Shown here: in pieces, positions 26,124-58,415 of the stretch
How positions within the stretch are numbered: the first letter of the stretch is position 1
Layout of the letters: each line of letters begins with the position of its first letter
From: Diaporthe sp. PMI_573
Lineage: Eukaryota > Ascomycota > Sordariomycetes > Diaporthales > Diaporthaceae
NCBI GenBank assembly: GCA_021399435.1
Contig: JAJTUP010000029.1
Location: forward strand, 310,001 to 374,000
Direction of reading: 5' to 3'
DNA length: 64,000 nt
Made by a program: the position numbers and the translations under genes
The notes under the pieces: model-generated
Seen by the model: only the letters and a program-made list of their open reading frames with translations
Database searches by the model: none
What the model was told of the DNA's origin: nothing

Positions 26124-26133
26124 GTGGGGCCAC
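26124..26133. promoter_or_regulatory. Cluster palindrome copy (GG centre)
   Basis: GTGGGGCCAC matches the GTGGNNCCAC consensus seen upstream of the cluster genes. It lies 33 bp from the next copy, in front of the aminotransferase-like gene. Confidence 0.5.
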
Positions 26134-26165
26134 TGTACTCAGCCCTGGAGTGCCCAAGTATCCAG

Positions 26166-26175
26166 GTGGTGCCAC
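26166..26175. promoter_or_regulatory. Cluster palindrome copy (TG centre)
   Basis: GTGGTGCCAC, about 280 bp upstream of the aminotransferase-like ATG. It is the most common form of the motif in the window. Confidence 0.65.
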
Positions 26176-26443
26176 TCACAGTACGTCTTACGAGCAGAAT
26201 CGCGAAATAGAAGAGAGCCATTCAGAAGCACATAACGTTTTCAAAAAAAAAATCAAATTCAACGCAGAATACGACCAGTTGACATCAAAACATCAAGGAA
26301 AGTAATGGTGCCGCTCTCAATATGCATCAAGTTGCCAACGTTCTGAATTCCACAGGTACGTAATCAGGTTCAATCTTCCCAACGGAGAAAATGTTGAAAC
26401 TAACAGGAATGTGGCTTCTAAAGACTGGGACTGTCTCTCGCCC

Positions 26444-27978
26444 ATGAAATCACATCGTAAGTGCGTTTGACCCCTGCTGCAGCTCTTCTCTTCCTAACAA
26501 CTTGGCCCTTGCTCTCAGTTACTACGTATTTAGAATGCGAATATGACGTTGCTTCTCGCACATGGAAATCTGTCCAAGGTCACCGGAGCTCGTCCTCGCA
26601 GTCGGAACGTGAGTCCCCGAACTCGAAGCATGGTAAAAACCCCGAAAGATCACTTTAAGTGTTGAGTAGTACTTAGACTAATTCATATTGGCGAGGAATA
26701 GCTCCACAACGTCAATGCCACGAAACCGTGCGAGGTGCGTTTACAAGTGAATTCCGTCATCAATGTAGAATATCCAATGGTCTGAGACATTCGCAGCTAC
26801 CCTCACGCCGCAGAATACCATAATTCTGTTCAGACCATATGAGCACGCTGCTCATTTCGCATGTTGCTGCGAGGCTGATTCGCTCCCAATTGTGCCGGAA
26901 AATGTATTCGTTGCTTCTCTCAAGGCTGCTGTTTATGCGAACGGTTTCTATGTCGCTCCTCATCACTCAGCCTTACAGTTAGGTAAGTGCCCAATATGCT
27001 ATATCACTCGAATCCTTTAAAATGCTTCAATTGTTCTCCGTCATATATCAGGAAGATGGGGCGGTCAAAAATAGTGTTATAATCAGCAGGCAATTTCTTG
27101 AATGATCATACTGATACTTAATAACACAGATATTCGGATAATGGCTTTCACGTCAGAAGAGGCTGAAGCACATGGAAGATGGGATGAGATCCCCGCGGCC
27201 AAGTTCCGGGTATTTGTAAACTCAGCACCGGCGCGGCACAGAATCAAGCCTTTGGATGTGTTCGCCTCGGATGAGTTTGGACACTTTTCAGAAGCCTTAC
27301 AGGGATCCGCGCTCGATGCTGACTGTATGGAACCTGTCGGGGAAGCTGCCTCGATATCGATATTGCATTTCAGTGGCAGATCCGATCAAAGAGCTGGAGA
27401 CCCAGCCACGTCATCTTTCTTCGGCTTGATTGCTGAAGATGATGGGGAGACCACTATGGTGATACCAGAGACACCCTACACTCTGGACGGTGTCACAAGT
27501 GCCAGCTGTGAGATACTGGCTCGGTCTCTGGGTTGGCACATTGAAAGGCGAGCAGTAAGTTGCGCAATCCTGCATCATGGTGAGCGACGTCTGGCTCACA
27601 CGATTACATTAGGTTGGACATTGCGAGCTTGCCAGTTTCTCTGAGGTCATCTCTACCGCGACGGGACTGATACCCGTCCGATCTATCGCTCTCAAGTCGA
27701 AAGCGAGGGTTTACCTCTACATGAAACCCAACCAGAAAGTCGGAGAAGGTTATAAGCTTCTATCGAGACTTTTAGATGACGTTGTCCTCGGGAGGGCGAC
27801 CCGTGACTTCGGTTGGAATGTTCACTCAGTCTATGATACTAGGTTCGACGTCATGCCACAAGAGAAGCGAATGCATAAGACGGGGGAAAAGACAACGGCA
27901 TTTAGATGCGGAAGTGGTGGAAGCCGCCCAGAGGACTTTTATTTCGCACTTCTTCCAGCCAGGCGATATTGCAATTAA
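26444..27978 (+). CDS. Branched-chain-aminotransferase-like protein lacking the catalytic lysine
   Basis: Model: exons 26444-26456, 26519-26608, 26696-26746, 26797-26982, 27130-27554 and 27613-27978 (376 aa), all in frame. Fold-type IV PLP aminotransferase features are clear: YDVASRTW, IILFRPYEHAAHF, VPENVFVASLKAAVYANGF, FRVFV, TSSFFGLIAEDDG, SCEILARSLGWHIERRAV, SFSEVISTATGLIPVRSI and a C-terminal DDVVLGRATRDFGWNV. The segment that should hold the Schiff-base lysine (GSAK-x-GGNYAP in relatives) reads LQGSALDADCMEPVG with no lysine, so normal transamination is not expected. The frame is nevertheless open across six exons. It may be an eroding gene or a protein with a new role. ToxF of the HC-toxin locus is a family parallel. 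The start is uncertain: coding-like sequence (DWDCLSP) extends above the chosen ATG. Confidence 0.68.
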
Positions 27979-28588
27979 GTTCTTGCAGTACTTTTAGCTT
28001 CTTTCCCGGACAGTGTATTATAGTGTATGATAGTGTACTACAGTATACCCATTTTACTACAGTATGTGTTAGTCGTGAGGTCCAAATGATCTAGGAGTTC
28101 TCCAAATCGTATGGAAGAACAAAGACTTCATCCCATAATGGTCCGGAAGATAAGCTCACGCAGTTTCTTACGGCCAAATCATGATGTGCCAAAGTGTCGG
28201 GTAAATCGCAAGAAATTTCCGATGCTTTTTTTTTCCTGTGATTTCCCCGTCAATTTCATACGTAATGCATGGTGTGGACAGATTCATGTCTGGGACCCGG
28301 GTCTCGGTACCACAAGTTCGGTTCACCAAGCCTATCTCTGCCTGGGCTAAAATTCAATTCAAATTTCGTTTGACTTCAGAATGATGGAAAGTAACACGAT
28401 TCACTTGGCTTCATTGCTAGACTTGTGACGTGTCATCGCTGCTTGAGTGGCGGTGCTCGCTAGACACCCAAGACTGCACTTTTGTGGAAACGATTCTAGG
28501 AATTTCTGTTACAGAGTGATGCACAATGAACTCGATGGCGTTTCCCGTTGTTACTTCAAGAGTGTTGCTCTGAGAGTGGGGCTAACTG

Positions 28589-28598
28589 GTGGCACCAC
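28589..28598. promoter_or_regulatory. Cluster palindrome copy (CA centre)
   Basis: GTGGCACCAC is the reverse complement of the common GTGGTGCCAC form. It is one of a pair whose start points are 25 bp apart, with no evident target gene. Confidence 0.6.
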
Positions 28599-28613
28599 CG
28601 ACAACACGAAGGG

Positions 28614-28623
28614 GTGGTGCCAC
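28614..28623. promoter_or_regulatory. Cluster palindrome copy (TG centre)
   Basis: GTGGTGCCAC, opposite in orientation to the copy 25 bp to its left. Together they look like a functional pair, as at 58.4 kb. Confidence 0.6.
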
Positions 28624-29646: not shown

Positions 29647-30585
29647 CTATTGTTTGCTATCATCTAGCATCCTCTTTACTTCCCCTATAATCTGATCCAT
29701 GTTGCGAAAGAAGAAGCTTATGTGCGCTTCTTCGGGCTCAATCACTAATTTGACATCATTCATGGTAGCTAGAGCCTCCTGGGCCATTCTTGCGGGAACG
29801 TGGACGTCCTTAGCCCCATGATATACCGTCAGCTCACCCTTCCTGACTGGGAGCTCAGACAATTCAAAGTCCCAAGGGCTGCCAAAGAGTTTTGCCTCGC
29901 AAGTCGAGCCCTCGGGTCCATCTACAAAGGCCTCCCGTATGCTTGCGGCAAGGAGGTCAAGGACCTTGCCGCCGTCAGCCTCCGCCGTTTCCAGGTCCTC
30001 CTTGGGGAGGTTCTTGAAGCCCTGGGCCAGCGTTTCCCGAAAACGGCCGGGCTGCTTGGTGTCCCTGGCGATCTTGCCCGTGGTCGCGTCGAACATCCAT
30101 GAAACCAACGAGGGCACCCACGGAGCCAGGTTGAAGATAACCCTGTTCGAGAGCATCATGCCGCCCAGGCCGAGGCTCGAGGGGTACATCCCCGAGATGA
30201 CCACGGCGCCAGCGAGGCGGGAGGCCGGGATGGAACGCACGCAGCCCAGCACGTATGGACCTCCCCCGGAAATTCCCATCACGGCGAAACGCTGGACGTC
30301 TAGATGGTCGGCCAGGGCGAGCACATCTTGTGAGAAGGAGAGGATGCTCCGCCCTGGGTCGTTGGTCGACCCACCGTACCCGGGCCGACTGGGTGCGATG
30401 ATTCGTAAACCGTGTCTTGTGGCTGCTTCGTGAGTGGCCGACCCCTCGTGGTGCGACGCGGGGAAACTGTGGAAGTAGAAGGCGGTGGGTGGCTGGTCAG
30501 CGCCAGTGCCAGTCTCTGCGGTCCCGAAGATGCTGTAGCAGAGCGTTCGCCCGTCCGGCAGGGCCAAGGATCTTGTTTCTGACAT
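29647..30585 (-). CDS. Alpha/beta hydrolase (cytosolic, cluster-associated)
   Basis: This is a single-exon gene of 312 codons. Near the N terminus is an oxyanion region (YFHSFPASHHEG), then PSRPGYGGS, the nucleophile elbow GISGGGPY with Ser106, an acid in YHGAKDVHVP and the histidine in EPEEAHIS, so the triad is complete. There is no signal peptide or anchor. The family covers esterases and epoxide- or ester-cleaving enzymes; the substrate here cannot be read from sequence. A GTGGCTCCAC palindrome lies 268 bp upstream, which ties it to the cluster. The NRPS lacks a thioesterase domain, so a role in chain release, editing or acyl hydrolysis is possible, but this is inference. Confidence 0.82.
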   Translation of the reverse strand: MSETRSLALPDGRTLCYSIFGTAETGTGADQPPTAFYFHSFPASHHEGSATHEAATRHGLRIIAPSRPGYGGSTNDPGRSILSFSQDVLALADHLDVQRFAVMGISGGGPYVLGCVRSIPASRLAGAVVISGMYPSSLGLGGMMLSNRVIFNLAPWVPSLVSWMFDATTGKIARDTKQPGRFRETLAQGFKNLPKEDLETAEADGGKVLDLLAASIREAFVDGPEGSTCEAKLFGSPWDFELSELPVRKGELTVYHGAKDVHVPARMAQEALATMNDVKLVIEPEEAHISFFFRNMDQIIGEVKRMLDDSKQ

Positions 30586-31339
30586 GGTCGTCGCGGCACC
30601 TTTACGGGGCTATTGGTATCGGTTTGTCAAGAAATGGAAAGGATAGTATGAGACTTGACCGCGGGGAAGACATGTAAAAGCTGAACTATCAGGCTCGCCT
30701 GCCGCGGAACGGGAAGTATTGACCGCTGCCTTGGCCTGCTTGACTCGGGGGATACAAAAGATGCGAATCCGAACAAGATCGAGGTGGCACAACGGGTTCC
30801 CCGCAACAACTGTCCGCGCTCCGCGGTGCGAGTAAGGTAAGGGGGAGGCTCTGTGGCTCCACCCCTGCGGGAAAAGCGCCGAACTTGATTCGGGTATACC
30901 CGCTTATACGACGGTGCTATAGCTCGGACGACTTGGCTGCAGCGGGGGCCGGAACTCGGGTGTCGGCGACAGGACGAGAATAGCCGTGCCGAAGCGCTGG
31001 GCCAACATGGCTGACATGCTTCCCTTGCTTCTCTTTTGGTGATTGACACCTCCTAACTTGTTTGGATGACCTTGTGAAGATTTTCAGTGGTTTATTCCTG
31101 TGCAACATGGGACTAGAAGGCTCTTTTCAATTTTGTTATCAGTTGATGTCTTTCGGAGGCCATCAGCTTTTTGTGCACGTTGCACCTGTAAAGTTAGAAT
31201 CATATGATTTACTCTGTGTCTTCGAACGTTTCAAACGTTGACCAGCCATTTATTCGTAGTTAAAATTCCATAGTATGTTCAAATATAGGTAATCACCGAC
31301 ACGAATGTTACTTCCAGCCCCTTGGCCTGCCCTGACAAG
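30586..31339. other. Intergenic region, promoter of the alpha/beta hydrolase
   Basis: This lies between the start of the hydrolase gene (minus) and the 3' end of the MFS gene (minus). It holds one GTGGCTCCAC copy at 30853-30862. No other gene is supported; the right half is AT-rich 3' flank of the MFS gene. Confidence 0.55.
30853..30862. promoter_or_regulatory. Cluster palindrome variant (CT centre)
   Basis: GTGGCTCCAC fits GTGGNNCCAC but has CT in the centre instead of T-N. It is 268 bp upstream of the minus-strand hydrolase gene. Confidence 0.45.
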
Positions 31340-33534
31340 TTACACTGCCATCATCGGATGGTTGTCATTCCCCTTTTTATCGCCATCTTTTCCTTGCTTG
31401 ACACTCTTCCACTCCACAAAGAGCGTGGCGACCAAGGCTCCACAAGCAAGCCCAAGGCTGACCTTGAAGCTATCCTGGAGGCCACGGTTGTATGCAGCCA
31501 GAACTGCTTGGTAGGCACTACTTTGTCCGACGGCTTTAAGTGCTTGCTCGATTCCTGTTGCCCCTGCGGAGAATACAACAGCAGGGTTTACCGTAGGGGC
31601 AAGTTGCTTCAGGGCCGTCGAGAGACTGTTCTGGAAGACAGACTGCCCAACTGAGATGAAGATAGAACCGCCCAAGTTCTGAAAAAAGATGATGGCCGCC
31701 GAGCCCACGGGGATATCTTCCTGTGCGAGCACAGTCTGGACCGCCGCCTGCGGGACCTGAAACCCGGCACCAAGGCCCACTCCAGCTAGGATCTGGTACC
31801 CGATCCATCTAGGAGTTGAGATATCCGCAGAATAAGTGGTGATGAGGCCCGCCCCCACAGCCAAGATAGCGGTGCTGCCAATGAGGAAGGGGTTATAATA
31901 CCCCAGCCAGGTAATGAATCCACCGACCGCGACAGACGACAAAACGAGCCCCAGCAACATGGGTAGAAGCTCAATGCCTGACTGGATGGCAGAAGAGCCC
32001 CGAATGCTCTGAAAGAAGATGGGCAGGTAGTACATGAAGATGTTCGAAGAGCCACCGAAGAGGATGACAAACGTGCAGCAAGAGGCAACAGTCCTCTGGC
32101 TGATTATTCGAGGTGGTATGGTCGCTTTCTCACCGAGCCATATCTGCGTCACCACGAATACGATGGCGAGGACACCGAATCCGACTAGGAGGCCAATGAT
32201 GGGTCCGGAGTTCCAGGCATACTCATTGCCGCCCCACTGGAGGACCAAAAGCAGGCAAGTTACTGCGGCTGTCAAGATCAGGGCGCCGATAATGTCTAGC
32301 TCTTTGATCCGTTCTAGGACAGGCTTATCGGTCTCTGACTTGGGTCGAGGAGGTGGGTGGAGCACCAGCAGCACGACGACAGCCGAGATACCTCCTATGG
32401 GGAGGCTGAGGAGAAAGACTGGGTCAGTCCGGGGTTGCCAAGGCGGTAAAGGGACGAGCGACATACTTGATGTAGAAACACCATCTCCACGTTACATGGT
32501 CCGTGAAGGCGCCTCCCAAGAGCGGCCCCACGACAAAGGCTATTGCCCAGACAGCCCCAAACAGGCTGAAAGCGATCGGACGTTTATCCAAGGGGACTGT
32601 GTCCTCCACCCGGTTAGCGTTCTGGGCCAGGCCAAGATCATCCGCAAGTCATGGCCGCGCACTCACCTATGAAGGATAAAATGACGGTACACCCGGCGAA
32701 AATGCCGGCCACGCCAAGTCCCGCCACGGCTCTAAAAGTTCCCCGTTTCAGCGGACTTACGAGCGGCATGGAAAAGTGGGACAAAGTGGCCAGATGGGAC
32801 TTACCGGCCTCCTACTAGGACGGCACTCGTGGGAGCAACTGCGCAGATCAAGGAACCCAACTCGAAGAGGAAGATGGCGGCCAGGAAGCCCCATTTTGCC
32901 TATGCGGGTTCATCCGAGTCAGTCAGATCCGGCACGGAGCCGCTCTGCTGCCGCGGCGCAGCAGCGTGGAGCATTCAAGGTATTTGACCCACATCAAAGC
33001 TTTTGTAGATTCGCCCGTACGATGGCTGCAGCGCTAGGATTATGCCAGGAACGTCAGAGGGGCTGTAGAGACGGTTTGCTGTGGAAACACGGGTGGAGTA
33101 ATAGTCTCACCAGTACTCGTTAGGAAGTAGGCACTGCCATACCAACCCACATCCTGCAAGTAAATGACCAGTCAGAAACCGCTTAGAAAGAGTGGCCGGG
33201 TGAGAAGCGAGGGGCGGAGAATTTGTGTATCACTCACCTGAATCGTCTTGAACTCGACTGTAATCTTTGGGATGGCTGTGCCAATGATGGTCTGGTCGAG
33301 GGCCACGAGGAAGAGACCCATGAAAAGACCGGACAAGATGAGCATGGTCTTCCAAAGTGGGGGATACTGTGTGGCTGCCTCGTCGACCTCCAACGATTGG
33401 CCATCTCTATCAGCAGCATCACTGTGCTGGGAACTCTTCTGTCCCATACTATGAGAGCTTTGGGCAGGAAGGACAGAAGACGCGTCGGACTTCGCTTCCA
33501 TGGTCGCCAGGTACACTGTGTTTTTGTCATCCAT
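31340..33534 (-). CDS. MFS drug/toxin efflux transporter, DHA2 (14-span) type
   Basis: Model: seven exons, 33534-33238, 33153-33111, 33033-32993, 32899-32805, 32731-32667, 32596-32467 and 32405-31340 (578 aa), all joins in frame. After a hydrophilic N terminus of ~60 residues comes the first span with the family signature [25 protein letters not shown], the degenerate GRIY loop, [16 protein letters not shown] and [14 protein letters not shown] are all hallmarks of DHA2 pumps that export fungal metabolites. The repeated spans and the C-terminal basic tail are complete. It probably sits in the plasma membrane and exports the cluster product, as ToxA does for HC-toxin (family parallel). A perfect GTGGTACCAC palindrome lies 176 bp upstream. 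The many very short 5' exons (41-95 nt) are typical of this family. Confidence 0.9.
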
Positions 33535-34699
33535 GGTCAGTATGCTGTTAGTGACTAATACTTGGTGAATAATGCGAGGCGCGCAGTCGTTGCAAGGGAC
33601 TCTAATATACGAAGCGTGATAAATAGTTGATACCCGTCTGAAGCGTTTGGGAAATACTCGGCGGAGGGTTATTATGCCGACTTGGCTGTGCATCCTTCTT
33701 CTGGACTGTGTGGTACCACCCGCGCGGCCCAATACAGACAATACAGGACTGGCCCATAGCTCGAGGATAAGCGAGAACCTTAATTCCAAGGCTGAGAGGG
33801 GGTGGAAGTACCCTATGGAGCCCTGGTGCAGTAGGGTTCATTTAAAGAGGGGCGTCGTTCTACATGTCGGCATGTATGGACGACCCTGAAACTAAGTTGA
33901 TAGGGAATGGGGCGCATCTCCGCAAGTTCGTAACGGAAGTCTCCCGACTCCCGAACGATTCTGCCCATTGAGAGAGCATTTGACTCGCAGTTTGCCACAC
34001 CTCCTGCAAGGGCTTGGCTAATGACCCCTCACCTGCATGCATGATCTTAGATAGTGTAGAAACAATATTCAACAGAAGGAGGTCGATGGCCAGGCTCTCG
34101 CAGGGGGGGCGCCAGGGCTGAGACCATGTGGCAAAGTGTTCCTGGACATGCATGGTACAGCACTGGCAAAGTACTGGCAGAGTACCTCGATGTAATCATA
34201 GACCTGTACAACAACCACGCGAAAGAAAACGTCCGAAATGCTCAACCCTCCGAACTGCTCAACGTCCCGGAGTCCTCAACCCCCCGGATTGCTCAAATGT
34301 CCGGAACTGATCAAGGGAGATGAGTGTTTTACAGGCCAGTGAATTGCGGAGAATGAGACATGGCGTTCCAAGAAAATTATTACTCGTCGAAATTCGGCAG
34401 CGACACTACACCAAGACCGCGGATATCATCTAAACGACCCATTAGCATGAGTCGAATTAGGTTCAGAGCCCCAGGGACCCAAGAACCTAGGTGAAGTCTC
34501 CACCATCCCGGGTGTTCGGGTGACACTTGCACACGCTTACGAGGCGTGAAGCGCGCACGCTACACCCATGTGTTGGTTCGCATGAACTTAATATTTAGCA
34601 TTGTGCCCTTTCAAGCTCGGATTCGATAAGCTTCCCAAACCATCAAAGTAACGAAATCCTTCGTCTTGTTGTTGCTTTTGTTCAGATCGAAGGGGCAAG
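33535..34699. other. Divergent promoter region, MFS pump / bHLH regulator
   Basis: This 1.2 kb region separates the MFS gene (minus) from the bHLH gene (plus). One palindrome copy is close to the MFS start; none is close to the regulator start. The stretch 34210-34320 is rich in repeated TCAACNNCCGGA-like words (CTCAACCCTCCGAACTG, CTCAACGTCCCGGAG and so on). No gene is supported. Confidence 0.55.
33710..33719. promoter_or_regulatory. Cluster palindrome copy (TA centre, perfect palindrome)
   Basis: GTGGTACCAC is an exact inverted repeat, 176 bp upstream of the MFS transporter ATG and about 1 kb from the bHLH gene. Confidence 0.65.
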
Positions 34700-36109
34700 A
34701 TGTCTTTAGCCACCAAAGCGGCCCGCCCTAAGTCAGGCGCAGCATCAACGAGCAGGCGTGAGCAGCTTATTGCGACTCTGGAGGCCCTGATATATAATGA
34801 CGATGTGGATCTTGACCTCTTCCAACCTGGAGCCCCTTTGCCGCAAGCACGCGATATTACGCAACAGACACCAACTCCCTTTCAGACACCTTCCCCAGAA
34901 GAACGGAGCAATATTCAGCCCGAGTACCAAAATGCCCCAACGGTGGACACCGTTATGGGTGACGCTGCCAACTACTCCCAGCTATACGCCGATCCCTTTC
35001 AATTGTTCGATACTCATCACGATGGCGTCACGGGCAAATCCAACTCATGGTTTTCACAAGTTCCTGACATTGGCTTCGAGAGTAGTGCCACCTCGGTGCA
35101 CTCTTACCCCATTCCACCACCACCACCACCAACACCACCACATCGTCACGGGAACGACGAGAGGACGCATGGTCTAGCATCCTCAGACTACCCACAGATA
35201 AATACGCCTAGTCATGATGACTTCAGCCAATATGACTTCTCGAGGCCACTGACCTCGCCACCAACGAGCCACCCTCCTGAAGTCTCCTCCTACCCATCCA
35301 TCCCCAAATCGCCAAACCCCTTCGTCGACTTCATGTCTTGGGATATGTTCATGGACTTCGGGGCTGGGCCCTCGCCAGCTGCAAGCGAGACAAAAGCCCA
35401 TGATTCCACGAACAGTGCAGATGATTCGTACGACGACCGCCAAGCCTCGGTCTCACCGCCCCCGATGCAGAACCAAAAGGCGGTGCAGCCACCACCTCCA
35501 GGTGCAACAACAGCAACAACATCGCAGGCGAACAGGAGACGGCGCCACCACAAAGACCACCGCCGGGGTGGCTCAAATTGCGCATCACCCTCGCCACCAC
35601 CACCCTCCTCATGCAGACGGGCCAGCCAAGCATCGGACAAGTTCTGCCCGCCCCAGCCAAAGGGCGTACGGGCCCACTCAGCCATAGAGAAGAGGTACAG
35701 GGCCGGCATAAACGAGAAGTTCGAGGCCCTGCGGGGTTGCATCGAGTCGCGCAAGAGGCCGAAGCAGGAGTCTCTGGAGCAGGCGCTGCGGCCGGGGAGC
35801 AAAGGGGCCGCCGCTCGGGGGTCCGAGGGCGGCGAGGGGGTGGGTGGTGCCACCACCTCTGGCACTGGTACCACCACCACCTCGGGGAAGAAAGGGTCCG
35901 GCGGAGGTGGTAACGCGAGCGACGCGTCCTCCGCCACCAGGATGAACAAGGCCGAGGTCCTGAGCGAGGCGGCCGAGTACATCCAGCAGCTCGAGGACGA
36001 GAACGGCGTCATGCTGGACCAGCTCAAGGTGCTCGTCCAGCGGCTGCGGGCGACGCGGATGGCGCTTCAGCCAACGACGCCTATGTGTAGTGCATCGTCG
36101 GCTGCGTAA
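34700..36109 (+). CDS. SREBP-type bHLH transcription factor, likely cluster regulator
   Basis: This is a single-exon gene of 469 codons. Residues 1-300 are low-complexity, Pro/Ser/Asp-rich (PIPPPPPPTPP) and acidic in patches, fitting an activation region. A basic patch NRRRRHHKDHRR may be a nuclear localisation signal. The bHLH begins at residue ~323 with RAHSAIEKRYRAGINEKF; Tyr333 in EKRYR is the SREBP hallmark, where other bHLH proteins have Arg. Helix 2 (MNKAEVLSEAAEYIQQLEDE) starts at residue 415, followed by a short zipper-like helix. The loop between the helices is unusually long (about 60 residues, Gly/Thr/Ser-rich). SREBP-type factors are known to bind CCAC-containing sites as well as E-boxes. 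Its place between the MFS and FAS genes makes it the likely pathway regulator acting through the GTGGNNCCAC sites. Confidence 0.88.
   Translation: MSLATKAARPKSGAASTSRREQLIATLEALIYNDDVDLDLFQPGAPLPQARDITQQTPTPFQTPSPEERSNIQPEYQNAPTVDTVMGDAANYSQLYADPFQLFDTHHDGVTGKSNSWFSQVPDIGFESSATSVHSYPIPPPPPPTPPHRHGNDERTHGLASSDYPQINTPSHDDFSQYDFSRPLTSPPTSHPPEVSSYPSIPKSPNPFVDFMSWDMFMDFGAGPSPAASETKAHDSTNSADDSYDDRQASVSPPPMQNQKAVQPPPPGATTATTSQANRRRRHHKDHRRGGSNCASPSPPPPSSCRRASQASDKFCPPQPKGVRAHSAIEKRYRAGINEKFEALRGCIESRKRPKQESLEQALRPGSKGAAARGSEGGEGVGGATTSGTGTTTTSGKKGSGGGGNASDASSATRMNKAEVLSEAAEYIQQLEDENGVMLDQLKVLVQRLRATRMALQPTTPMCSASSAA
35844..35853. promoter_or_regulatory. Palindrome copy inside the bHLH coding sequence
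   Basis: GTGGTGCCAC occurs within codons for the Gly/Ala/Thr-rich loop of the regulator, with a second partial match (TGGTACCAC) 20 bp on. It may be a coincidence of codon use in the loop, or an internal feedback site. Confidence 0.2.
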
Positions 36110-44516: not shown

Positions 44517-44526
44517 GTGGTTCCAC
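44517..44526. promoter_or_regulatory. Cluster palindrome copy (TT centre)
   Basis: GTGGTTCCAC, 311 bp upstream of the oxidoreductase start and about 440 bp upstream of the NRPS start. Confidence 0.65.
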
Positions 44527-44616
44527 GAAAATCTCAGTGAAGCGTTCTCATGCTGGATATGTCGCGGGTGTGGATAATCAGCATATCTATTTTCAGTTGT
44601 GAACTATGGCAGTGGA

Positions 44617-44626
44617 GTGGTGCCAC
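44617..44626. promoter_or_regulatory. Cluster palindrome copy (TG centre)
   Basis: GTGGTGCCAC, about 340 bp upstream of the NRPS start codon. Confidence 0.65.
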
Positions 44627-44642
44627 CTTTGGATGCGAACCG

Positions 44643-44652
44643 GTGGTGCCAT
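44643..44652. promoter_or_regulatory. Cluster palindrome copy with one mismatch
   Basis: GTGGTGCCAT, 26 bp from the preceding copy; the last base differs from the consensus. The spacing is close to that of the pairs at 28.6 kb (25 bp) and 58.4 kb (28 bp). Confidence 0.5.
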
Positions 44653-44967
44653 ATGTGGGCCCCAAGCCATGTGCAACGCAGGTACCGCTCATGGATCTTG
44701 GTTTCTCACCATGACCCACCAAGGTTTGTAAGAATGCAAGAAAACAGCCGCTGGATAACTGCTTATTACGTCCACATTCGGGAACCTCGTAGAGAGCGAG
44801 TAGGCCGATTTTGTAGCTTGGTATATGTAAATATCATATCATCAATATCCTGCGATTTCACCATCCCAACGAGCAGAGTTGGTAGCCAATTGAAGTGCCC
44901 ATCAATGATCACATCACAGCTTGAGCCAAGCACACTTAAGCGCAACACATACAACCCTACCATCACA

Positions 44968-47900: not shown

Positions 47901-50900
47901 CCTGAACGTGGAGGTTGGATACGACCCCGTGGTCCTCGAAGAGGTACAAGTCAGACGTCTCCTGGACCACTTTGAGCACGTACTTCTCCAGACCAGCGAC
48001 ATCACCTCCGAGTCGCCGCTGCGCAACATCTACCACATCGCCCCCTCCCACTGGGAAGAGCTGCAGCAGTGGAACGGCAACGTGCCCGAGCCCCTCATGA
48101 AGGGCGTCCACGAGCTCTTCGAGAGCCGGGTCGACGCCCAGCCAGACGAGCCAGCCATCTGTGCCCGCGATGGCGAGTGGACGTTTGCAGAGCTGGACGC
48201 GGTGTCCGAGAAGCTTGCGAGGTGGCTGAGGTCCATGGGTGTCAAGACTGGGTCTTATGTGCCCCTGCTGTTCGAGAAGTGCGGCCTCACCATCGTCGCG
48301 ATGCTGGGAGTCCTGAAGGCGGGTGGCGCCAGCGTCGCCCTCGACCCGTCGCATCCTACAAAGCGGCTCCAGGGGCTTGTGTCTGGCATGGGCGAATGCA
48401 TTGTCATTTCCAGCGGCCAAAACCGTGAGCTGGCAGCCAGCTTGGGACGTCGTGTGGTTGTTCTTGACGTCAATACCCTGCGGGCACTCGCTGCTCGGCC
48501 GTCTTTGCCTCGGGTTAGCTCGGAGGTCGAAGTCATTCCCGATTCTACCGCATTCGTGCTGTTCACGTCCGGCTCAACTGGTATGCCCAAGGGAATTCTG
48601 ATTCCACACAAGGCCTTCTCTAGTAGTATCAGGGGCCACGGCAAGGTTCTTCGCTTCACAACTGGCCCTGGCTCTCGCAACTTCCAGTTCACGGCGTACA
48701 CCTCCGACGTCAGCATCGGAGAGATCTTCACCTCCCTTGCTCTTGGATCTTGTGTGTGTGTGCCCTCAGACTGGGACCGCAAGAACAATATCGCCGGCGC
48801 CATGCGGGATTTCAACGTGAACTGGTCTTTCTTCACCCCCAGTGTCGCGACCTTGTTGCGGCCGCAAGAAGTTCCGTCTCTGAAGACGCTCGTCTTCGGC
48901 GGCGAGACTGCATCACCGGATAACTTCAAGACCTGGGCTCCGTATCTCTACCTGATCAACAGTTTCGGCCCAGCTGAGACGTCCATCTGGTCCCACTGCA
49001 TCCCGCGCCCCGTCGAGCTGAGCGACTTCGGCAGCAACATCGGCTATGGTGTCAGCTGCGCGACCTGGATCACAGATCCCGACGACTACAACAAGCTGCT
49101 ACCCATAGGAGCCATCGGCGAGCTGCTTACCGAGGGCCCCAACGTCGCTGCTGGCTACCTGAACGCGAGCGAGAAGACCAACGCGACGTTCGTGACGAAC
49201 CCGGCCTGGATGCCGGCGGACCGCAAGTCCATGAGGATATACAGGAGCGGCGACCTCGCCCGGTTCCTACCCAACGGCATGGTGCAGTTCCTCGGCCGGC
49301 GCGACCACCAAGTCAAGCTGAACGGCCTGCGCATCGAGCTGGGCGAGATCGAGCACCAGATCCGCCAGAAGGTCCCCGACACCATGCTCGTCGCCGTCGA
49401 CGTGGTCACGCCTCACCCAGTAGGATCGGGGCGCATCTTAGCCGCGTTCATCGCACCCAAGGACCCTGTCCAGGCCGCCGATGAGGCAGACGACAAGGCC
49501 GCTACATCCAACCTGGCCGCAGACCCCGAGGCGCAGAAGCTCCTCTCTCTTCTCGCAAGCGAGACCACTGAGGCGATGCAGGGCGCCCTCGACGGCCTCG
49601 AGGACGCCATGATCGCCGCCCTCCCGCGGCACATGGTCCCGACCGCCTTCGTGCCCCTCCGCGAGATGCCCCTGACCGCGTCCGCCAAGACGGACCGCAA
49701 GGTCCTCAAGCAGCTCGCGTCCATGGTCCCCGCCGCCGACCTGACGCGCCTGGGCAGCACGGGCGGCGCTGCCCGGCAGCTGCACGCGCCGGGCAGCGTG
49801 ATGGAGCGCGTGCTCGCGAGGTTGTGGGGCGTCGCCCTCGGCCGCGAGCTGGAGCTCGACGTGCGGGATAGCTTCTTCAAGATCGGCGGTGATTCGCTTT
49901 CTGCGATGCGTCTTGTGTCTCTGGCCAGGCGTGAGGGTGTCAAGATTTCTGTGGAGCAGATCTTCAAGATGTCTGTTCTTCAGGACATGGCGCGGGTGGC
50001 CGTTGTGGCGGACAACGAACATGAGGACGATGAGGTTGCTGATGAATCGCCCTCGAGCATGGTCGTTGCCCCTTATGCAGCAGTTGGGGGCGTCGAAGCA
50101 GTCAAGGCCGGTCTTCTCGAATCCGCGGCGGACCAGCTCGGCATAGATGAGAGCGATATCGAAGATATCTATCCCTGCACGCCCCTCCAAGAAGGACTCT
50201 TGGCCGTCTCCCAGGATGCTAAAGGAAGTTACGTCGCCCAGATGGTGCACGAGCTATCCCCTGACACCGATCTCCCCCGGTTCCAGAAGGCCTGGTCCAC
50301 ACTGCTGGATGACTGGCCAATTTTGAGGACGCGTTTCTTCCCATCGCTCCTGGATGATGGTAGTGTTCGCTTGATGCAGGCCGTCGTTAAGACCAAGCCC
50401 CGTTGGCTCAAGCCTCGCACCTTGAATGACTACCTGAAACTCGACGCGAGGGACAAGATGCAGACTGGTGACGGCATGCTGAGGCTGGCAGCGTTCCAGG
50501 ACAAGAAGACACAGAAGCTCTACTTTGTCATGACTATCCACCACGCCGTGTATGATGGCTGGATGCTGGGACTGCTCTTGACAGCCCTGAGGCGAGCGTA
50601 TTCCGGCATGCCAAAGCCGGTGACCGTCCCTTACAACGTCTTCATCAACCGACTCGAAGCCACTGACGCCGAGAAGAGCCAGAGCTTCTGGCAGCGCTAC
50701 GTCAGCGGTGCTCCCCGTCTGTCATGGCCTGAGTTGCCTACACTGGACTTCCGACCCAGGTCCAACTGCGTCCAGACGATCACTTCGCCCCTGCCCAGTG
50801 ATCGCAGCTCCATGAGCTTCACGCCGACGACCTGGCTTCGGACGGCCTTCGCCATCCTTCTCGGTGCATACTCGTGCACCGATGATGTTGTTTTCGCTTC

Positions 50901-53900
50901 CAGCGTGTACGGTCGCGCCTCCGGCCTGTTGTCGTCGGCCGAGCTGGTTGCTGGTCCGACACTGGCCACGATCCCAGTCCGCGTCGGCATTGAGCGCGAG
51001 AAGCTTGTCAGTGAGCTCATGGCGGAGGTGCAGGCCGAGTCCGCAACTATGCTAGCCCACGAGCAACACGGCATGCAGAACATCAGGCGTTACAACATGG
51101 AGGCGCTGGCCAGCGTCGACGCGCAGAGCTTGCTTGTCGTCCAGATCGACGAGCCTCACGCAGCGGCGCCCCAGAACGTGGACTCGGAGGCGGCTGATGA
51201 GCTCAAGTTCACATCGACGCCGCCTTCGGACCTGGAGAATGGCTTCCTGAGCTGTGCTCTCGTCCTCGAGGCGACAGTCTCGGCCAACGGGCTGCACATC
51301 GTTGCCACTCACGACGACAAGGTGCTTCAGCCTGACGAAGTGCAGAGGTTCCTCCGCCAGATGACCCACATTGTGGGCCAGCTGTGCAGTGACGCCCCAG
51401 ACGGCCGCCGCGTCGCTGATCTGAGCCTCGCAGCACCTGAGGATTTGGAGGAGATGCACGAGTGGAACGGGCCTGTCGCAGAACCAAAGAAGGCTCTGGT
51501 CCACGAACTCTTCCACGAGCAGGCCGAGGACCAGCCTGATGCCGAGGCTCTGGTCTCCTGGGAGGGAATGCTGACGTTCCAGGAGCTGGATGATCTCTCG
51601 ACACGCCTGGCAGGCCATCTGTGGGATTCTTGTGGTCTGCGTCCAGGGATGCATGTGCCACTCATCTTCGAGAAAAGCATGTGGGCGGTCGTTGCAATGA
51701 TGGCCGTGCTCAAGGTTGGAGCTGCCAACGTCGCACTCAACCCAGCGCAGCCACCCGAGACTCTGAAGTCACTCTTCTCTGACGTTGATGCTGAGTTCGT
51801 GCTTTGCAGCGAGCAGAACTTGTCTCTGACTCAGGCCAACTTTACTAAATATTTCTGCGTCGGCCCATCAATCCAACAAGACGGTGCCTTGACCGGTGAG
51901 AATGGGGCCGGAGGCAGCATCCGTCCCGATCACCTGGCCTTCCTTCTCTTCACGAGTGGCAGCACCGGTAAACCCAAGGCCATCATGATTGACCATTATG
52001 CATTCAGCAGCAGCATGCGCGGCCACGGCGAGACACTGTGCTACAACAAAGGGGGAAGGAACTTACAGTTCACGGCATATACCTCCGACGTGAGCATAGG
52101 CGAGATCTTCACATCTCTGACACGCGGCGCCACGGTAAGCGTCACTTCACCCCATTCACCCCTTCAACGTTGCTAACCTAGATACCAGGTTTGCATTCCC
52201 TCAGACGAAGAGCGGATGAACGATCTGGCTGGTGCCATGGAGCGCATGCGCGTTGACTGGGCATTCCTGACACCCAGTGTTGCATCTCTGCTGAACCCGG
52301 ATCACGTACCAACCCTCCGAACGCTGTTGTACGGAGGCGAGACAGCCACCGTCACCAACGTGAAGACGTGGGCCAACAGACTGCATCTCATCAATTCTTT
52401 TGGTCCGGCAGAGACGTCCATCTGGAGTCATGCGCACCCCCACTTTACCGAGACCGACATTGGCTCTGATATCGGCTGGTCTATGGGATGCGCCACCTGG
52501 ATTGTCGACCCAGATGACTACAGCCGCCTCATGCCCATCGGTGCTATCGGCGAGCTGGTAGTGGAGGGCCCCAACGTGGCGGCCGGGTATTACAAGAACC
52601 CGGAGAAGACGCAGCACGCCTTCGTCAAGAGCCTGCCCTTCCTCCCGGAGGACAGGCGCAACCGCATCTACCGCATGGGCGACCTGGCACGCTGGATGCC
52701 GGGCGGTCGGGTGCAGTTCCTGGGCCGCAAGGACACCCAGGTCAAGCTGCACGGTCTCAAGGTGGACGTGGGCGAGGTCGAGAACAAGATCCGCGTCGCC
52801 ATGGACGGTGGCGTCGGCCTCGAGGTCGCCGTGGAGATGATCGAGAACCCGTCCGACTCGTCGGACTCGCGCCTGATCGCTTTCATGAACACCACGCCGG
52901 TCGGGCAGCCCCAGGACCGCAACAACGTGACCGTCGTCAACGACGACGCAACGCTGCAGGCCTTTGTTGAGGGCACCAAGAGCCTGCGGGCCGACCTCGC
53001 AGCCGTCCTGCCCGCGTTCACAATCCCCAGCTTCTTCGTGCCCCTGACCAGCATGCCTCTCAACGCATCCGCCAAGACTGACAGGAAGCGCCTGCGCGCC
53101 ATCGTCGTGGAACTGGGCTTCGCGAGCCTAGCCCGCTTTGCCCTCTCTGCCCAGCGCGACGTGCAGCCGCCGAAGACCAAGACGGAGAAGCTGCTGCACA
53201 AGATGTGGTGCACGGTGCTCGGCCTTGCTCCTGAGGACTTTGGCGTGGAGGCTGACTTCTTCGAGTGCGGTGGCGACTCCATCGCTGCTATGAAGATGGC
53301 TTCACTGGCACGTGCGGGCAAAGTGTCCCTGGCGGTGCAGGACGTGTACGACAACCCTGTTCTCGGGGCGTTGTCTCGTCTGTTGGAAGGCAGGTCTGGT
53401 GTGCCTCAAAGCGAGGCGCTTCCCGAGGTTGCGCCTTTCTCTCTGCTGCCCCAGTCAGCCAACACCGAGCTGTTGAAGATCAGGGCAGCAGATCTTTGTG
53501 GCTCGCAGCCGCAGGATGTGGTTGATATTTACCCATTGACCGCAATACAGCGTTCCATTGTGGACCAGACTCTTTCCCGCCCGGGAGCTTTCTGGCTGCA
53601 TAACGTCTTCGAGATTCCTGAGACTGTTGATGTTGGTCGTCTCGAGCGAGCATGGCGCCGTGTCGTGTCAGCGCACGCCATCCTGCGCACGCGTATCATC
53701 AAGACTCGCGAGGGTGAGCTTGTGCAGGCAGTCATTGCATCGCCAGACGAGGTCATGCACGCGGATTGTCCCTCAACAGATGTCGACACTTTCATCGCGG
53801 CCGACAAGCGCAGAGAGCTGGGCTTCGGAAGGCCTCTGACACGCGCTGCTTTGCTCAACAAGAAGTGGTTCATCCTGGCGCTGCATCACTCGACTTACGA

Positions 53901-54867
53901 TGCCTGGTCGATGAGCAAGGTTTTCGAATCTCTCGAGCTGGAGTATGCTCGCCTCGCGGAAGAGACCACTACCGGGGAGCACGACATCGTCCGGGAGCAG
54001 GTCAGCTTCAACCACTTCGTCAAGGCACTCCAAGAGCAAGACAAGGAGGCATCCACTGCTTTCTGGCGCGACACAATGGCCGGTGTATCAACACGGCCAT
54101 TCATCCCCCTCAAGCCAGCAGAGGACCGCTCGACAAGATGCCTCCTGCAACACACCATCACCCTACCTCCCTCGACAACCCCAACGCGCACCCACGGGAC
54201 GCAAGCCGAGCTGGCCTACGCCGCGATAGGCCTGGCCCTGCACCAGCAGCTCCAGACCCCAGACACGGTGCTCCGCCTCGTGTCGACTGGCCGCACGTCC
54301 CAGACCATCCCGAGCGTCGAGGACCTCGTCGGCCCGACGGTCACGATCGCGCCGCTGCGCATGTCCCACCACTCGGACAGCACCGCGAAGCTGGGCGGCT
54401 TCGTCTCGCACGTGCGCGACCAGCTGCGCGCCCTCGCCCCCCACGAGCACTTCGGCTTCGAGGATGCCGCGCGCGCGGGCGGGCCGGACGCCGAGGCCGC
54501 GTGTGCCGTGGCCCCGCAGGTCGTCGTGCACCCGTTCGACCCGTACGCCGAGCAGGCGGCGGGCGGGATCGGGCTCAAGAGGCGGGAGCTCTCTGTCTTC
54601 AATGACGATGGGGCTCCGTTTACCATTGACGTCTCTCTGGTTTCGAAGGGTAAGGTGCTGGAGGGCATGAACGTGCGCGCGTTGTTTTCCGACTCGGTGA
54701 TTGAGGAGCAGGGCGTGAGGCGCCTTGTCGCCGTGCTGGATGCTGTTGTCCGACTCATGGTTGAGGCCAAGGATGACGTTTCTGTTTCTGAGCTCCTTGC
54801 TGCTGTTGGGTATCCGGATTTGGAGAAGGCGCAGCGGGAGATGACCCTGACAAGGGCTATGAGGTAG
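44968..54867 (+). CDS. Nonribosomal peptide synthetase, T-C-C*-A-T-C-A-T-C
   Basis: Model: exons 44968-52134 and 52189-54867 (3281 aa); the 54-nt intron lies inside the second A domain. Domains in order: T0 with Ser88 (ELGGNSL); C1 ~135-560 with HHAAYD (H290, H291); C2 ~590-1030, where the motif is HNAVFD (N736 replaces the second His), so probably inactive; A1 ~1045-1580 (FTSGSTGMPKG, YRSGDLARF, KTDRK); T1 Ser1643 (IGGDSL); C3 ~1700-2155 with HHAVYDG; A2 ~2178-2690 (FTSGSTGKPKA); T2 Ser2753 (CGGDSI); C4 ~2800-3240 with HHSTYDAW. There is no E, TE or reductase domain. The free T0 must be loaded by another enzyme, perhaps with the acyl chain of the clustered FAS. By my alignment the A1 code is DVGFVGSIW and A2 is DVGFLGSIW, so both should select the same or similar residues. 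The terminal C domain is probably the release or cyclisation domain. Confidence 0.93.
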
Positions 54868-55380: not shown

Positions 55381-56358
55381 TCAAAACCCTTCGAGCATGC
55401 AAGACTCCCACAAGCTCGACACTTCGTCAGCCACGAGCTTGGGCTCGGTAGCTATTACCGCATGCCCGCTTCCTGATGCTTGAACAAAACGACTGCTTGC
55501 TGAAAGGAGCATCTGTTGCCTCTGGAGCTCGCAGTCAAGTTCGTCGAATCGGGAATCCACAAATTCGCTGACTTTTGACAGCTCCCGCCTGGCTTCTCCG
55601 TGGACGCCCGCCTGCTGGGTAGCGGAAATAACACGTCGGTAGTCCCGTTTCGTATCACCCCGTATGACACTCACAGGTCTCATCATGAGGGCCATCATCT
55701 CCAGTTGCTTCTTATCAGCAAGGTCTTGGGAGCTTTGTGGTACTGCTTCCATCTCTCGCGCCATGGTCCTCACTTTGGACTCCCGCTCGGCATCCAGCGT
55801 CAACAGACTCAGTTCTTCTGGCGTATAATGATCTCGCCCGGCAAGCAATCCCGTCATGTCGAGCAACGTCAACCTGTCCGGCCCTGCGAGTTCCACAAGA
55901 GGAAGAAGCGGCTCCCGTAGCGTCTTATGTGTGTTCTCCTGGTTTGCATCGACCAGGACCATCCCCACGACAGCGTCCGACCCTGCAGCCGCGAGAACTT
56001 CCCGAGCCACAATCCCGCCGTACGAGTGCGCCACCAGGATGTAGGGAGGTTCGACCCCGGCGGAGGCGAGCACATCCAACAGCTCTGCCGCCATGGTGCT
56101 TGCCGAGCGAGTTGACGATGCCGCGGGGCTACGGCCGTAGCCAGCCCTGTCGTAGCGGTAGCTGCGTATGCGGGAGTCCAGGAGTCGCTGTACTGGGGCC
56201 CAGCTTGAGCTGCTTGCCCCCATGCCTGCTTCGAAGATGACGACTGGCTGGCCTGGTGTCCTTGCTGGTCCCTTGCACGCGAGGAAGAGCTCCGTGCCGG
56301 AGGCCCCTTTCACGATGGCTTCCATGGGAGTAGTTCCGGTCGACCAGTCGAGGCTCAT
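55381..56358 (-). CDS. Alpha/beta hydrolase 2 (cluster-associated)
   Basis: This is a single exon of 326 codons from the ATG at 56358; the frame is open a little further up but without an ATG. The fold is clear: IFEAGMGASSSSW (oxyanion region), YRYDRAGYGRSP, nucleophile elbow VAHSYGG with Ser112, LVDANQEN after the next strand, and the catalytic histidine in GSGHAVIATEP near the C terminus. It belongs to a different branch of the superfamily from the hydrolase at 29.6-30.6 kb. There is no signal peptide. It is divergent from the oxygenase-like gene and shares two palindromes with it. As the NRPS has no thioesterase, this enzyme could act as a stand-alone editing or release hydrolase; that is inference only. 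Confidence 0.83.
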   Translation of the reverse strand: MSLDWSTGTTPMEAIVKGASGTELFLACKGPARTPGQPVVIFEAGMGASSSSWAPVQRLLDSRIRSYRYDRAGYGRSPAASSTRSASTMAAELLDVLASAGVEPPYILVAHSYGGIVAREVLAAAGSDAVVGMVLVDANQENTHKTLREPLLPLVELAGPDRLTLLDMTGLLAGRDHYTPEELSLLTLDAERESKVRTMAREMEAVPQSSQDLADKKQLEMMALMMRPVSVIRGDTKRDYRRVISATQQAGVHGEARRELSKVSEFVDSRFDELDCELQRQQMLLSASSRFVQASGSGHAVIATEPKLVADEVSSLWESCMLEGF

Positions 56359-56676
56359 GCTGTCGTTGAACGTGTGCAATCCTCCACTGATCTGAATTCT
56401 TGGCTATGTTGTTCCCTGTTGAGAATGTGACCAACGTAGGAGGACTGCAATCGCGTTTTTGGTAGGCCGAATGCACTATGTTTCTTTTCCCGGCTAGTTC
56501 ATCCGCAGTACAGCTTCAGCCAGTCTAAGAAAGGCTCATCATGTTTTGACATCTTCGACTGGTTGCATCGTCAAAATCGGCACTCTATCGCTTCCCGACC
56601 ACTGCATGCTCCTGCAGTTGGGTTTCACACATGCACGTCTGCATCACGGCTGCATGACCCACTGAAGTACACTCAA

Positions 56677-56686
56677 GTGGTTCCAC
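56677..56686. promoter_or_regulatory. Cluster palindrome copy (TT centre)
   Basis: GTGGTTCCAC, 319 bp upstream of hydrolase 2 and about 270 bp upstream of the oxygenase-like gene. Confidence 0.65.
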
Positions 56687-56758
56687 CTCCACCGGTTCGT
56701 TGATTCCAAACCCCACTTGTTTACGGGCCCAAAACACCGAGTTATTCATCCAAATTCG

Positions 56759-56768
56759 GTGGTGCCAC
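56759..56768. promoter_or_regulatory. Cluster palindrome copy (TG centre)
   Basis: GTGGTGCCAC, about 190 bp upstream of the oxygenase-like gene. Confidence 0.65.
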
Positions 56769-56958
56769 AGCGCAGGAGCGGAACCTTCCTGATTCATTGC
56801 TACACGCATTAGTAATACCGAGTATTATTAGACACATAATGGGTCCCATTTGATTACTGATTGTCCAGGACAAAGCACACTATTCCAATTTGCATTCATT
56901 GTTGACAGAAGGCACTCTGACAATACTATCAGAAACGCTTGCTTCATATCTTGCTATC

Positions 56959-57897
56959 ATGGATACATACTCAAATTTCGCGGGAGTTCCCGCCATCGAT
57001 GCCTCGATCCTGAACGAGGAGCCCTCAGCCGACCGCAAGAAGCTCCTTCAGCTTCTCGTTGCCTCTCTTTCCACATATGGTGCGATCAGGATTACGGGGC
57101 ATGGCATTGCTGCGCACAAAATACAGCGAGCATTCGAATCGGTAATTGTGCCCAATACACTGTTTCTGATGAGTTCCATGACTAACACTACTAGATAGAG
57201 TAAAGAATTCTTCAGTTTCCCAAAGCAATTGAAATCATCAGCGGCAGGTTCATGTTCGGAGAATGGGTTGTGCCGTGGTTATAGGGAGCTGCAGGTGCAC
57301 ACCGGAGATGAGACGACCACAGCATATGAATATGTAAGTGGAAAAGAATAATCATGATGCTGCCCCCAGCCGCGTCTTGTACTGATTTCACGTGTCTAGG
57401 AATCCTTCTCAGCAGGCCCTTCATACGACAGGCAAGCTCCGACGCCCTGGCCTATAGGAGTGCGCGGAGACACCTTTAAGATGATGATGCAGGCCTTCAA
57501 CCGAGAATGTGCCAGCCTACACTACGATCTACTTCAGATCATCGAGGAGGCCCTGGGGCTCTGGGACGACGAGCTAGCATCTCGTTGGTCCCACAGGAAT
57601 GGTGAAGTCCGTACCAAGCACCGGACTTCTAGCCTCAAGGGAGCAATTGAAGGTTTAATGACGGGATTGCCAGAAGGGAGAGGTATTCACCCTATGCTTA
57701 TGTTGGTATTCCAAGAGACGAGGGGCGGGGAACTCGTCGTCGTCTGCGGCACCAGGATTCGAAAATGGATTCAGAATCAACTATGGTCATCATCTGGCAC
57801 GAAGACAAGGCCGCAAGCTGAAGAATGCGTATGTCTACGGCCTTCCAAGTACTCGTTGGACTTTGTGGGGTATGAGGACATGCATAATACGAGTTGA
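56959..57897 (+). CDS. 2-oxoglutarate/Fe(II) oxygenase-like protein, active site not found
   Basis: Model: exons 56959-57141, 57199-57333 and 57400-57897 (271 aa). The N-terminal part is a good match to the DIOX_N region of plant/fungal 2OG oxygenases: PAIDASIL, YGAIRITGHGI, SSKEFFSFPKQLK, LCRGYRELQ. It continues with a helical segment (LLQIIEEALGLWDDELAS). The core that should hold the iron ligands H-x-D reads GIHPMLMLVFQETRGGEL: the His is there but the Asp is missing, as if a few residues between HP and ML were lost. The distal His-Arg-Val motif is also not seen, and the C-terminal ~60 residues do not resemble the family. The gene is therefore probably non-functional as an oxygenase or a decaying copy. 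Its promoter still carries palindromes shared with hydrolase 2. Confidence 0.6.
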
Positions 57898-58377
57898 GGT
57901 GAGATGGGGAGGGCTGTAAATTGTCACAAAGCGTATATACATAATTATAGCGATGCCATTCTATTCTTTATTTCCGAACACCTTGCTTGTCTCAGATGTA
58001 AGCTCAGAGTTTCTACCCATTGACAACACAGGCCGAGAATTCGCTACACAAGGCCTCGTAGAGCAACTTTCATGTAGCGATTTCTCAATCCTACCCACGG
58101 ATTTTCTCCACGCAACGGAGACACACCAAGATTCTCATACAGTGCATCTCACACACGTCTACTGCACGAAAACATTTACCGCATATCACCAAATTTACAA
58201 GTCATCAATCTAACTAGCCATGTCTTTTTGATTTCGTGAGGCTAAATTGACCTAGGCATCTGCGGATATCTGAGTTCCGGGCTGGTGTTTTTGCCTGAGT
58301 CAGTGCATGTCTCAGTCCCGCATACCAACTCTTACTGCAGAATACGACTGGTTCTGGAGGCACTCGCAGTAGATAGA

Positions 58378-58387
58378 GTGGTGCCAC
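58378..58387. promoter_or_regulatory. Cluster palindrome copy (TG centre)
   Basis: GTGGTGCCAC, about 390 bp upstream of the FAS alpha ATG; first of a pair. Confidence 0.65.
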
Positions 58388-58405
58388 ATCCCGGGCCGCC
58401 GAAGA

Positions 58406-58415
58406 GTGGTACCAC
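58406..58415. promoter_or_regulatory. Cluster palindrome copy (TA centre, perfect palindrome)
   Basis: GTGGTACCAC, 28 bp from the preceding copy and about 360 bp upstream of FAS alpha. Confidence 0.65.

Follow-up and report, generated by a model that had tools for sequence, protein, structure and literature searches.

A recurring promoter palindrome in a Diaporthe NRPS/FAS gene cluster and its putative Gra2-type bHLH regulator

Two described systems come close to the element treated here, GTGGNNCCAC, which recurs in the promoters of a gene cluster for a non-ribosomal peptide synthetase (NRPS) and a fatty acid synthase (FAS) in Diaporthe sp. PMI_573 (contig JAJTUP010000029.1, positions 310,001 to 374,000; this 64-kb stretch is called the window below and positions follow its own numbering). 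The first is cluster C02 of Fusarium graminearum, which according to passages of PMC4198257 carries the palindrome 5'-GTGGtgCCAC-3', a motif whose first report is credited there to Gardiner 2009. The palindrome is assigned to 12 genes in the text and to 11 rows in Table 4 of that paper, including those for FAS alpha, FAS beta, a multidrug resistance protein, a flavonol-synthase-like protein and a branched-chain aminotransferase (the last in the form GTGGtaCCAC), and it is found in 4% of promoters (P=6.8e-13). Eleven of the 12 motif genes are induced on agmatine medium, all 12 depend on FGP1, and the C02 genes depend on the nitrogen state as well. C02 encodes NPS8, which has been linked to the gramillins (passages of PMC10512235), GRA1 has seven adenylation (A) and condensation (C) domains (passages of PMC10967133), and Gra2 is the basic helix-loop-helix (bHLH) regulator of gramillin (passages of PMC10056406, citing Bahadoor 2018), with which TRI6 has been reported to act.

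The second system is that of the sterol regulatory element-binding proteins (SREBPs). These bind TCACGTGA and in addition the asymmetric sterol regulatory element (SRE) ATCACnCCAC through the half-sites ATCAC and GTGG, a contact that is possible because position 12 of the basic region is a tyrosine in place of arginine (passages of PMC8431614). Several fungal SREBPs prefer TCANNCCA, and in the case of Hms1, helix 1 and the loop together decide the site preference (passages of PMC6329520).

We propose that GTGGNNCCAC serves as operator in a Gra2-type regulon, to which the bHLH protein encoded in the cluster would bind as a homodimer, activating the cluster by way of the doubled GTGG; we put the probability of this reading at roughly three in four. 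The locus has in common with C02 the same 10-bp palindrome in most promoters, as well as genes for FAS alpha, FAS beta, a transporter, a flavonol-synthase-like dioxygenase and a Gra2-type bHLH protein, so that palindrome and regulator type recur together in a different order of fungi. C02 is also the one related cluster for which promoter data were found in print, and it has the motif. It differs in having two NRPS A domains, against seven in GRA1, and in two alpha/beta hydrolases and an FAD oxidoreductase that are not named in the C02 table, many C02 genes being of unknown function. As the NRPS is not the gramillin enzyme, the cluster is related to C02 by regulation and is not a gramillin cluster. 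An initial sequence-only reading of the window had called the operator undescribed, which does not hold considering the published C02 motif; what is new is the palindrome in another order of fungi, together with a shorter NRPS, and the half-site model given below. A literature search with the words GTGGTGCCAC, GTGGTACCAC, GTGGNNCCAC, GTGGTNCCAC and GTGGTGCCACC yielded a regulatory palindrome only in PMC4198257, among the papers listed and judged by titles and counts (PMC1488866 deals with primer design). The text of PMC4198257 contains neither 'bHLH' nor 'helix-loop-helix'. Among the papers listed, none was seen from its title to join Gra2 to the palindrome, and the connection is absent from the passages of PMC10056406, PMC10455978, PMC10967133 and PMC10853542. 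The proposal thereby joins facts that were found printed apart, namely the gramillin palindrome, the gramillin bHLH regulator and the GTGG half-site of SREBPs.

Abundance, form and placement of the palindrome

The window contains 14 exact matches to GTGGNNCCAC, 13 of which lie outside recognised coding DNA. These 13 are all where the sequence-only reading had put them; its estimate was around one chance match per 64 kb. The genome holds 1148 copies in 83,732,395 bases (217 contigs), that is 13.7/Mb or one per 73 kb, which corresponds to 0.88 copies per 64 kb (Poisson P=8e-13 for at least 14, and ~1e-9 after correction for 1308 windows). Dinucleotide-preserving shuffles of the window (n=100) averaged 1.47 copies, with 5 as the highest count, and none of the 100 reached 14; overall, ~0.9-1.5 copies are expected by chance. 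The genome scan that had been suggested, here counted over the whole genome rather than per promoter, thus shows the palindrome to be rare, and given that the same pattern read backwards occurs 1508 times, it is not a generally common word. Matches with up to one mismatch are in slight excess only (48 in the window against 34.0 expected). A further set of loci from the same genome (141,664 bases, chosen for other purposes, slightly overlapping and with two that adjoin a motif-rich place on contig C1) contained three copies, one of which is a coding copy in a paralogue of the bHLH gene.

The spacing between the half-sites is specific as well. When GTGG-N0..12-CCAC was scanned over its 13 spacings in the cluster non-coding DNA (7,714 bases in intervals marked by the analyst), spacing 2 gave 13 copies and every other spacing 0 or 1. 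In a count of gapped words (half-length 3 or 4 bases, gap 0-12), GTGGNNCCAC shared first place with the overlapping GTGGNACCA, even though the background contained four loci picked for the motif and was thus biased against this outcome. Outside the ten bases, the flanks of the 13 intergenic copies are near random, with a mild preference for G before (13/26) and C after (13/26). The stricter form GTGGT-N, which had been noted in most copies, accounts for 12 of the 14 in the window and for at most 566 of the 1148 genome-wide (P=0.006).

All six promoter regions with placed starts have sites, which stand 180-446 bp before a gene start (distances are taken from the site centre; those to the NRPS and FAS alpha were obtained by subtraction). 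Hydrolase 1, with its start codon at 30585, is preceded at 272 bp by GTGGCTCCAC (30853..30862), the MFS transporter (start 33534) at 180 bp by GTGGTACCAC (33710..33719), and FAS beta (start 42280) at 412 bp by GTGGTGCCAC (42688..42697). The divergent promoter of the oxidoreductase (start 44206) and the NRPS (candidate start 44968) contains GTGGTTCCAC (44517..44526) and GTGGTGCCAC (44617..44626), at 315 and 415 bp from the former and at about 446 and 346 bp from the latter, in addition to the 9/10 match GTGGTGCCAT (44643..44652), which was likewise recovered. Between hydrolase 2 (start 56358) and the dioxygenase-like gene (start 56959), GTGGTTCCAC (56677..56686) and GTGGTGCCAC (56759..56768) are found at 323 and 405 bp from the first start and at 277 and 195 bp from the second. 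Finally, GTGGTGCCAC (58378..58387) and GTGGTACCAC (58406..58415) stand about 394 and 366 bp 5' of the candidate start of FAS alpha (58777). The aminotransferase-like gene on the plus strand has GTGGGGCCAC (26124..26133) and GTGGTGCCAC (26166..26175) upstream, ~300 bases before the first frame assigned to it (26461). The claim that the copies lie upstream of cluster genes therefore stands for 11 of the 13 intergenic copies and fails for the pair GTGGCACCAC (28589..28598) and GTGGTGCCAC (28614..28623), which is not upstream of hydrolase 1, a minus-strand gene with its start at 30585, nor 5' of any other recognised gene.

As claimed before, only one copy is coding: GTGGTGCCAC at 35844..35853 covers Gly-Gly-Ala-Thr codons within the bHLH gene and is probably a coding coincidence. 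It is unlikely to act as an operator, because two of the three near-identical bHLH paralogues in the genome carry GTGGCGCCAC within the gene too. The view that the palindrome marks the cluster borders is borne out on the left within the limits of the window, with no exact copy in 1-25885. To the right, the interval that begins at 58416 is free of copies up to the end of the window and for another 16 kb, after which two isolated copies follow (GTGGCGCCAC and GTGGAACCAC). One other FAS alpha gene was found in the genome (contig C144, E=1.4e-59) and is taken as the housekeeping copy; the two fetched, overlapping loci around it contain no GTGGNNCCAC, against two copies at the cluster gene.

Pairs with the reported distance of 25-28 bp occur at 28589/28614, 58378/58406 and 44617/44643 (the last including the 9/10 match), whereas the other pairs are 42, 82 and 100 bp apart. 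Genome-wide, close pairs (gap 5-35) gave six matches, three of them in the window, against one for the backwards control, and a search for wider gaps (36-66, with the first copy in the GTGGT form) returned one place, on another contig. Of the two remaining places with close pairs, one is a triple that precedes a P450 fragment on contig C1, and the other is a pair within a subtilase frame of C141. The former (C1:1730721-1731595) has four palindromes of the GTGGT form within 0.9 kb and is a possible unlinked target of the same factor; ten further frames around it had no Pfam match. On the basis of the motif statistics, the placement and the spacing, the assignment of the palindrome as a pathway-specific operator of the NRPS/FAS cluster is strongly supported.

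The Gra2-type bHLH protein of the cluster

The cluster encodes a bHLH protein of 469 amino acids on the plus strand (34700..36106; PF00010), which has relatives in Diaporthe and Gnomoniopsis. A profile built from 18 sequences of this family, including the window protein, was used to score 7,996 candidates sharing most words and retrieved 'Transcription factor gra2 [Fusarium graminearum]' with E=4.2e-35 and a Fusarium relative with E=3.2e-32. The next among the 29 proteins listed was an SREBP with PF09427, at E=9.5e-8. Searches with the single window protein or its bHLH part did not reach Gra2. In the reverse direction, the window gene was the best match of Gra2 in the Diaporthe genome (39.6 bits, best stretch), narrowly ahead of three paralogues (at most 37.6 bits) and then SREBP-type genes. 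In addition, the N-terminal stretch LIATLEALIYNDDVDLDLFQPGAPLPQA of the window protein matches LIASLQALLANDHVDLEILRSGVPWPSA of Gra2.

A maximum-likelihood tree was made from the joined helices (73 columns) of 16 of the 31 Gra2-type rows and three SREBPs, omitting genomic bHLH proteins whose second helix was not found in one frame. The 16 Gra2-type rows split from the SREBPs by a long branch with an ultrafast bootstrap of 100. Support within the Gra2-type part is low in places; Gra2 groups there with the Gnomoniopsis protein (support 77) and not with the window protein in particular. Judged by profile and tree, the window protein is a homologue of Gra2, and this homology backs its putative role as the binder of the palindrome.

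The basic region carries the tyrosine of the SREBPs at position 12 (EKRYR/EKKYR) in all 31 rows, that is the window protein and 30 relatives (P0002-P0032). After the conserved histidine comes S, Y or A in 31 of 31 Gra2-type rows and N in all five SREBP-type rows (P0033, L011, L013, L016 and L020); the genomic bHLH protein L019, which lacks the tyrosine, also has S at this position. The SREBP C-terminal domain PF09427, which is present in the SREBP P0033, was not found in the window protein, from which Pfam recovered only the HLH domain at E up to 0.001.

The three paralogues are located at C40:65329, C153:79721 and C189:179656. Mutually they are 97.9-98.9% identical over about 2.7 kb of DNA, and with the window copy they share about 78-79% identity in DNA and about 69% in protein. 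These copies have the appearance of a dispersal of the regulator gene alone.

Half-site reading and its alternatives

In the reading that we prefer, the bHLH protein (34700-36106) would bind GTGGNNCCAC as a homodimer and in this way jointly activate the genes for the NRPS, the two FAS subunits, the transporter and the tailoring enzymes. The tyrosine that replaces arginine at position 12 would allow a subunit to read GTGG in place of the E-box half ATCAC. On the asymmetric SREBP site ATCACnCCAC one subunit would be on ATCAC and the other on GTGG; with both subunits on GTGG, the preferred site would become GTGG-NN-CCAC, which is symmetric, equally long overall and in register. Such a reading of two GTGG halves would explain why the site is two-fold symmetric, why its spacing is fixed and why neither the E-box nor the SRE is enriched in the cluster. 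The system would thus be like that of SREBP and SRE (ATCACnCCAC; fungal TCANNCCA) with respect to the tyrosine, the GTGG half-site and the 10-bp site, and would differ in that both halves are GTGG; the protein differs by its place on a separate branch, the missing C-terminal domain and the residue after the histidine. If this is correct, the bHLH domain of the window protein would prefer GTGGTGCCAC to CACGTG or TCANNCCAC, the palindrome would gain a named protein, and there would be a testable account of how bHLH specificity moves off the E-box.

We are evenly divided on a broader proposal, in which the Gra2-type proteins would form a tyrosine-bearing bHLH branch that has the alternative SREBP reading fixed in both subunits and binds only GTGG-NN-CCAC, a symmetric operator that is not an E-box, with the pair of factor and operator kept across fungal orders while the NRPS changed in size. 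Were the pair indeed kept together, scans for clustered GTGGNNCCAC would find silent clusters as well as unlinked targets, so that the palindrome could serve as a search word for related silent clusters.

Several observations weigh against the homodimer on GTGG-NN-CCAC as the explanation of the regulon. The bHLH gene itself has its nearest site 985 bp upstream of the start, at 33710 in the region that it has in common with the MFS gene. The pair at 28589/28614 is flanked by the ends of the aminotransferase-like gene and of hydrolase 1, in an interval where no gene is recognised; of the eight open frames there, none has a Pfam match except one at E=0.083, far below the cut-off, and the 1.6 kb from 28000 to 29640 that holds the pair has no second copy in the genome. 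The three bHLH paralogues have neither an intergenic palindrome nor another cluster protein within about 10 kb on either side, which indicates that this family of proteins also occurs independently of such clusters. Furthermore, the asymmetric SRE (RTCANNCCAC) is absent from the cluster non-coding DNA, and CACGTG is not enriched in it when compared by eye (15 copies in the window, three of them in these 7,714 bases and seven in the 25,885 bases of the left flank). The protein would therefore have to be strict for GTGG/GTGG, a reading that is not described for any SREBP in the passages of PMC8431614 and PMC6329520.

The distant site of the regulator gene and the extra copies without motif-bearing neighbours would also fit a situation in which the palindrome is the cluster operator and is bound by another protein, such as a zinc-finger protein or a broad regulator of nitrogen or secondary metabolism, the bHLH protein acting beside it or elsewhere. 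The dependence of the C02 genes on FGP1 and the nitrogen state (passages of PMC4198257) and the report of TRI6 with Gra2 point in the same direction. Nevertheless, we consider another binder unlikely, given that no DNA-binding domain besides bHLH was recognised in the 33 frames given to Pfam (the window has 82 frames of at least 150 amino acids), that the palindrome and a Gra2-type bHLH protein are found together in two orders of fungi, and that GTGG is an alternative half-site of SREBPs (passages of PMC8431614).

The homodimer could also be wrong in detail, with the bHLH protein binding as part of an asymmetric or larger complex, either by joining a canonical SREBP in a heterodimer or as dimers that pair up on the closely spaced sites. 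Heterodimers are common among bHLH proteins, several SREBP-type proteins are encoded in the genome, and the pairs 25-28 bp apart recur. Even so, such a complex seems improbable to us: the eight fixed bases are symmetric in all 13 intergenic copies, which is true by the way in which they were picked, yet the excess with one mismatch is small, and ATCA-type half-sites beside CCAC are not enriched. That the copies are mere remnants of a dispersed repeat or an effect of composition, without a regulatory role, is largely excluded and hardly credible, since, although repeat families can yield short words repeated close together, the flanks of the 13 intergenic copies are near random, only spacing 2 is enriched while shuffles give 1.47 copies, and 11 of the 13 stand before recognised cluster genes with none in 1-25885.

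A single short element common to the promoters of an NRPS/FAS cluster is known from the cyclic tetrapeptide clusters, with the Api-box and the TOXE tox-box, both of which are presumably unrelated in sequence to the palindrome described here. Other candidates for a common element, namely CACGTG, the asymmetric SRE, TGACGTGA, CCAAT and CGGN6CCG, were by eye absent from the cluster non-coding DNA or not clearly enriched in it (TGACGTGA occurs once in the window and not in this DNA). ATCANNTGAT occurs twice in the window (31138 and 31199), both times in the cluster non-coding DNA and not far from the palindrome at 30853.

Genes of the cluster and its left flank

At the left end of the cluster, the aminotransferase-like gene (26461..27975, plus strand) consists of several open frames (26461-26655, 26769-27017, 27102-27641 and 27613-27975) and is class IV/BCAT-like by eye only. 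It gave four weak tblastn matches (E 0.07-0.2), two of which are collinear with one genomic class IV aminotransferase (E 0.1-0.2). Pfam had no aminotransferase match on the three frames tried, the gene is absent among the 11 matches of a genome search with PF01063, and a PDB search with the longest frame was empty. It is followed on the minus strand by the alpha/beta hydrolase called hydrolase 1 (29647..30585; PF12697, E=3.1e-10) and the exons of the MFS transporter (31340..33534; PF07690). Beyond the bHLH gene, the minus strand encodes the FAS beta subunit (36518..42280; PF08354 with E=2.2e-128, PF16073 SAT and PF00698) and the FAD/NAD(P) oxidoreductase (43211..44206; PF07992, E=4.8e-21).

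The NRPS (44968..54867, plus strand) has the Pfam domain order T-C-C-A-T-C-A-T-C. The second C match is partial owing to the piecewise search, which cut the domain, and an epimerisation domain may underlie one of the two adjacent C matches. At 52174-52176 there is an in-frame stop, around which the intron signals GTAAGC, CTAAC and CAG are present; being in an apparent intron, it does not make the gene look broken. The first part of the protein (44968-48100) opens with a carrier domain and has no A domain ahead of the two C-family domains that come next, an arrangement that suggests an external source of loading such as the FAS.

The right part comprises the second alpha/beta hydrolase (hydrolase 2, 55381..56358, minus strand; PF12697, E=1.6e-20) and, on the plus strand, the exons of the 2-oxoglutarate dioxygenase-like gene (56959..57894; DIOX_N with E=1.9e-5 and 25.7 bits, below the Pfam cut-off of 27.3) and of the FAS alpha subunit (58777..63887; PF18325 with E=2.4e-26, and PF00109).

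The motif zone is directly bordered on its left by an O-fucosyltransferase-like gene (24413-25885, plus strand), whose match is below the Pfam cut-off, and further to the left of the cluster the minus strand encodes a large histidine kinase with a GAF domain (1658-5440).

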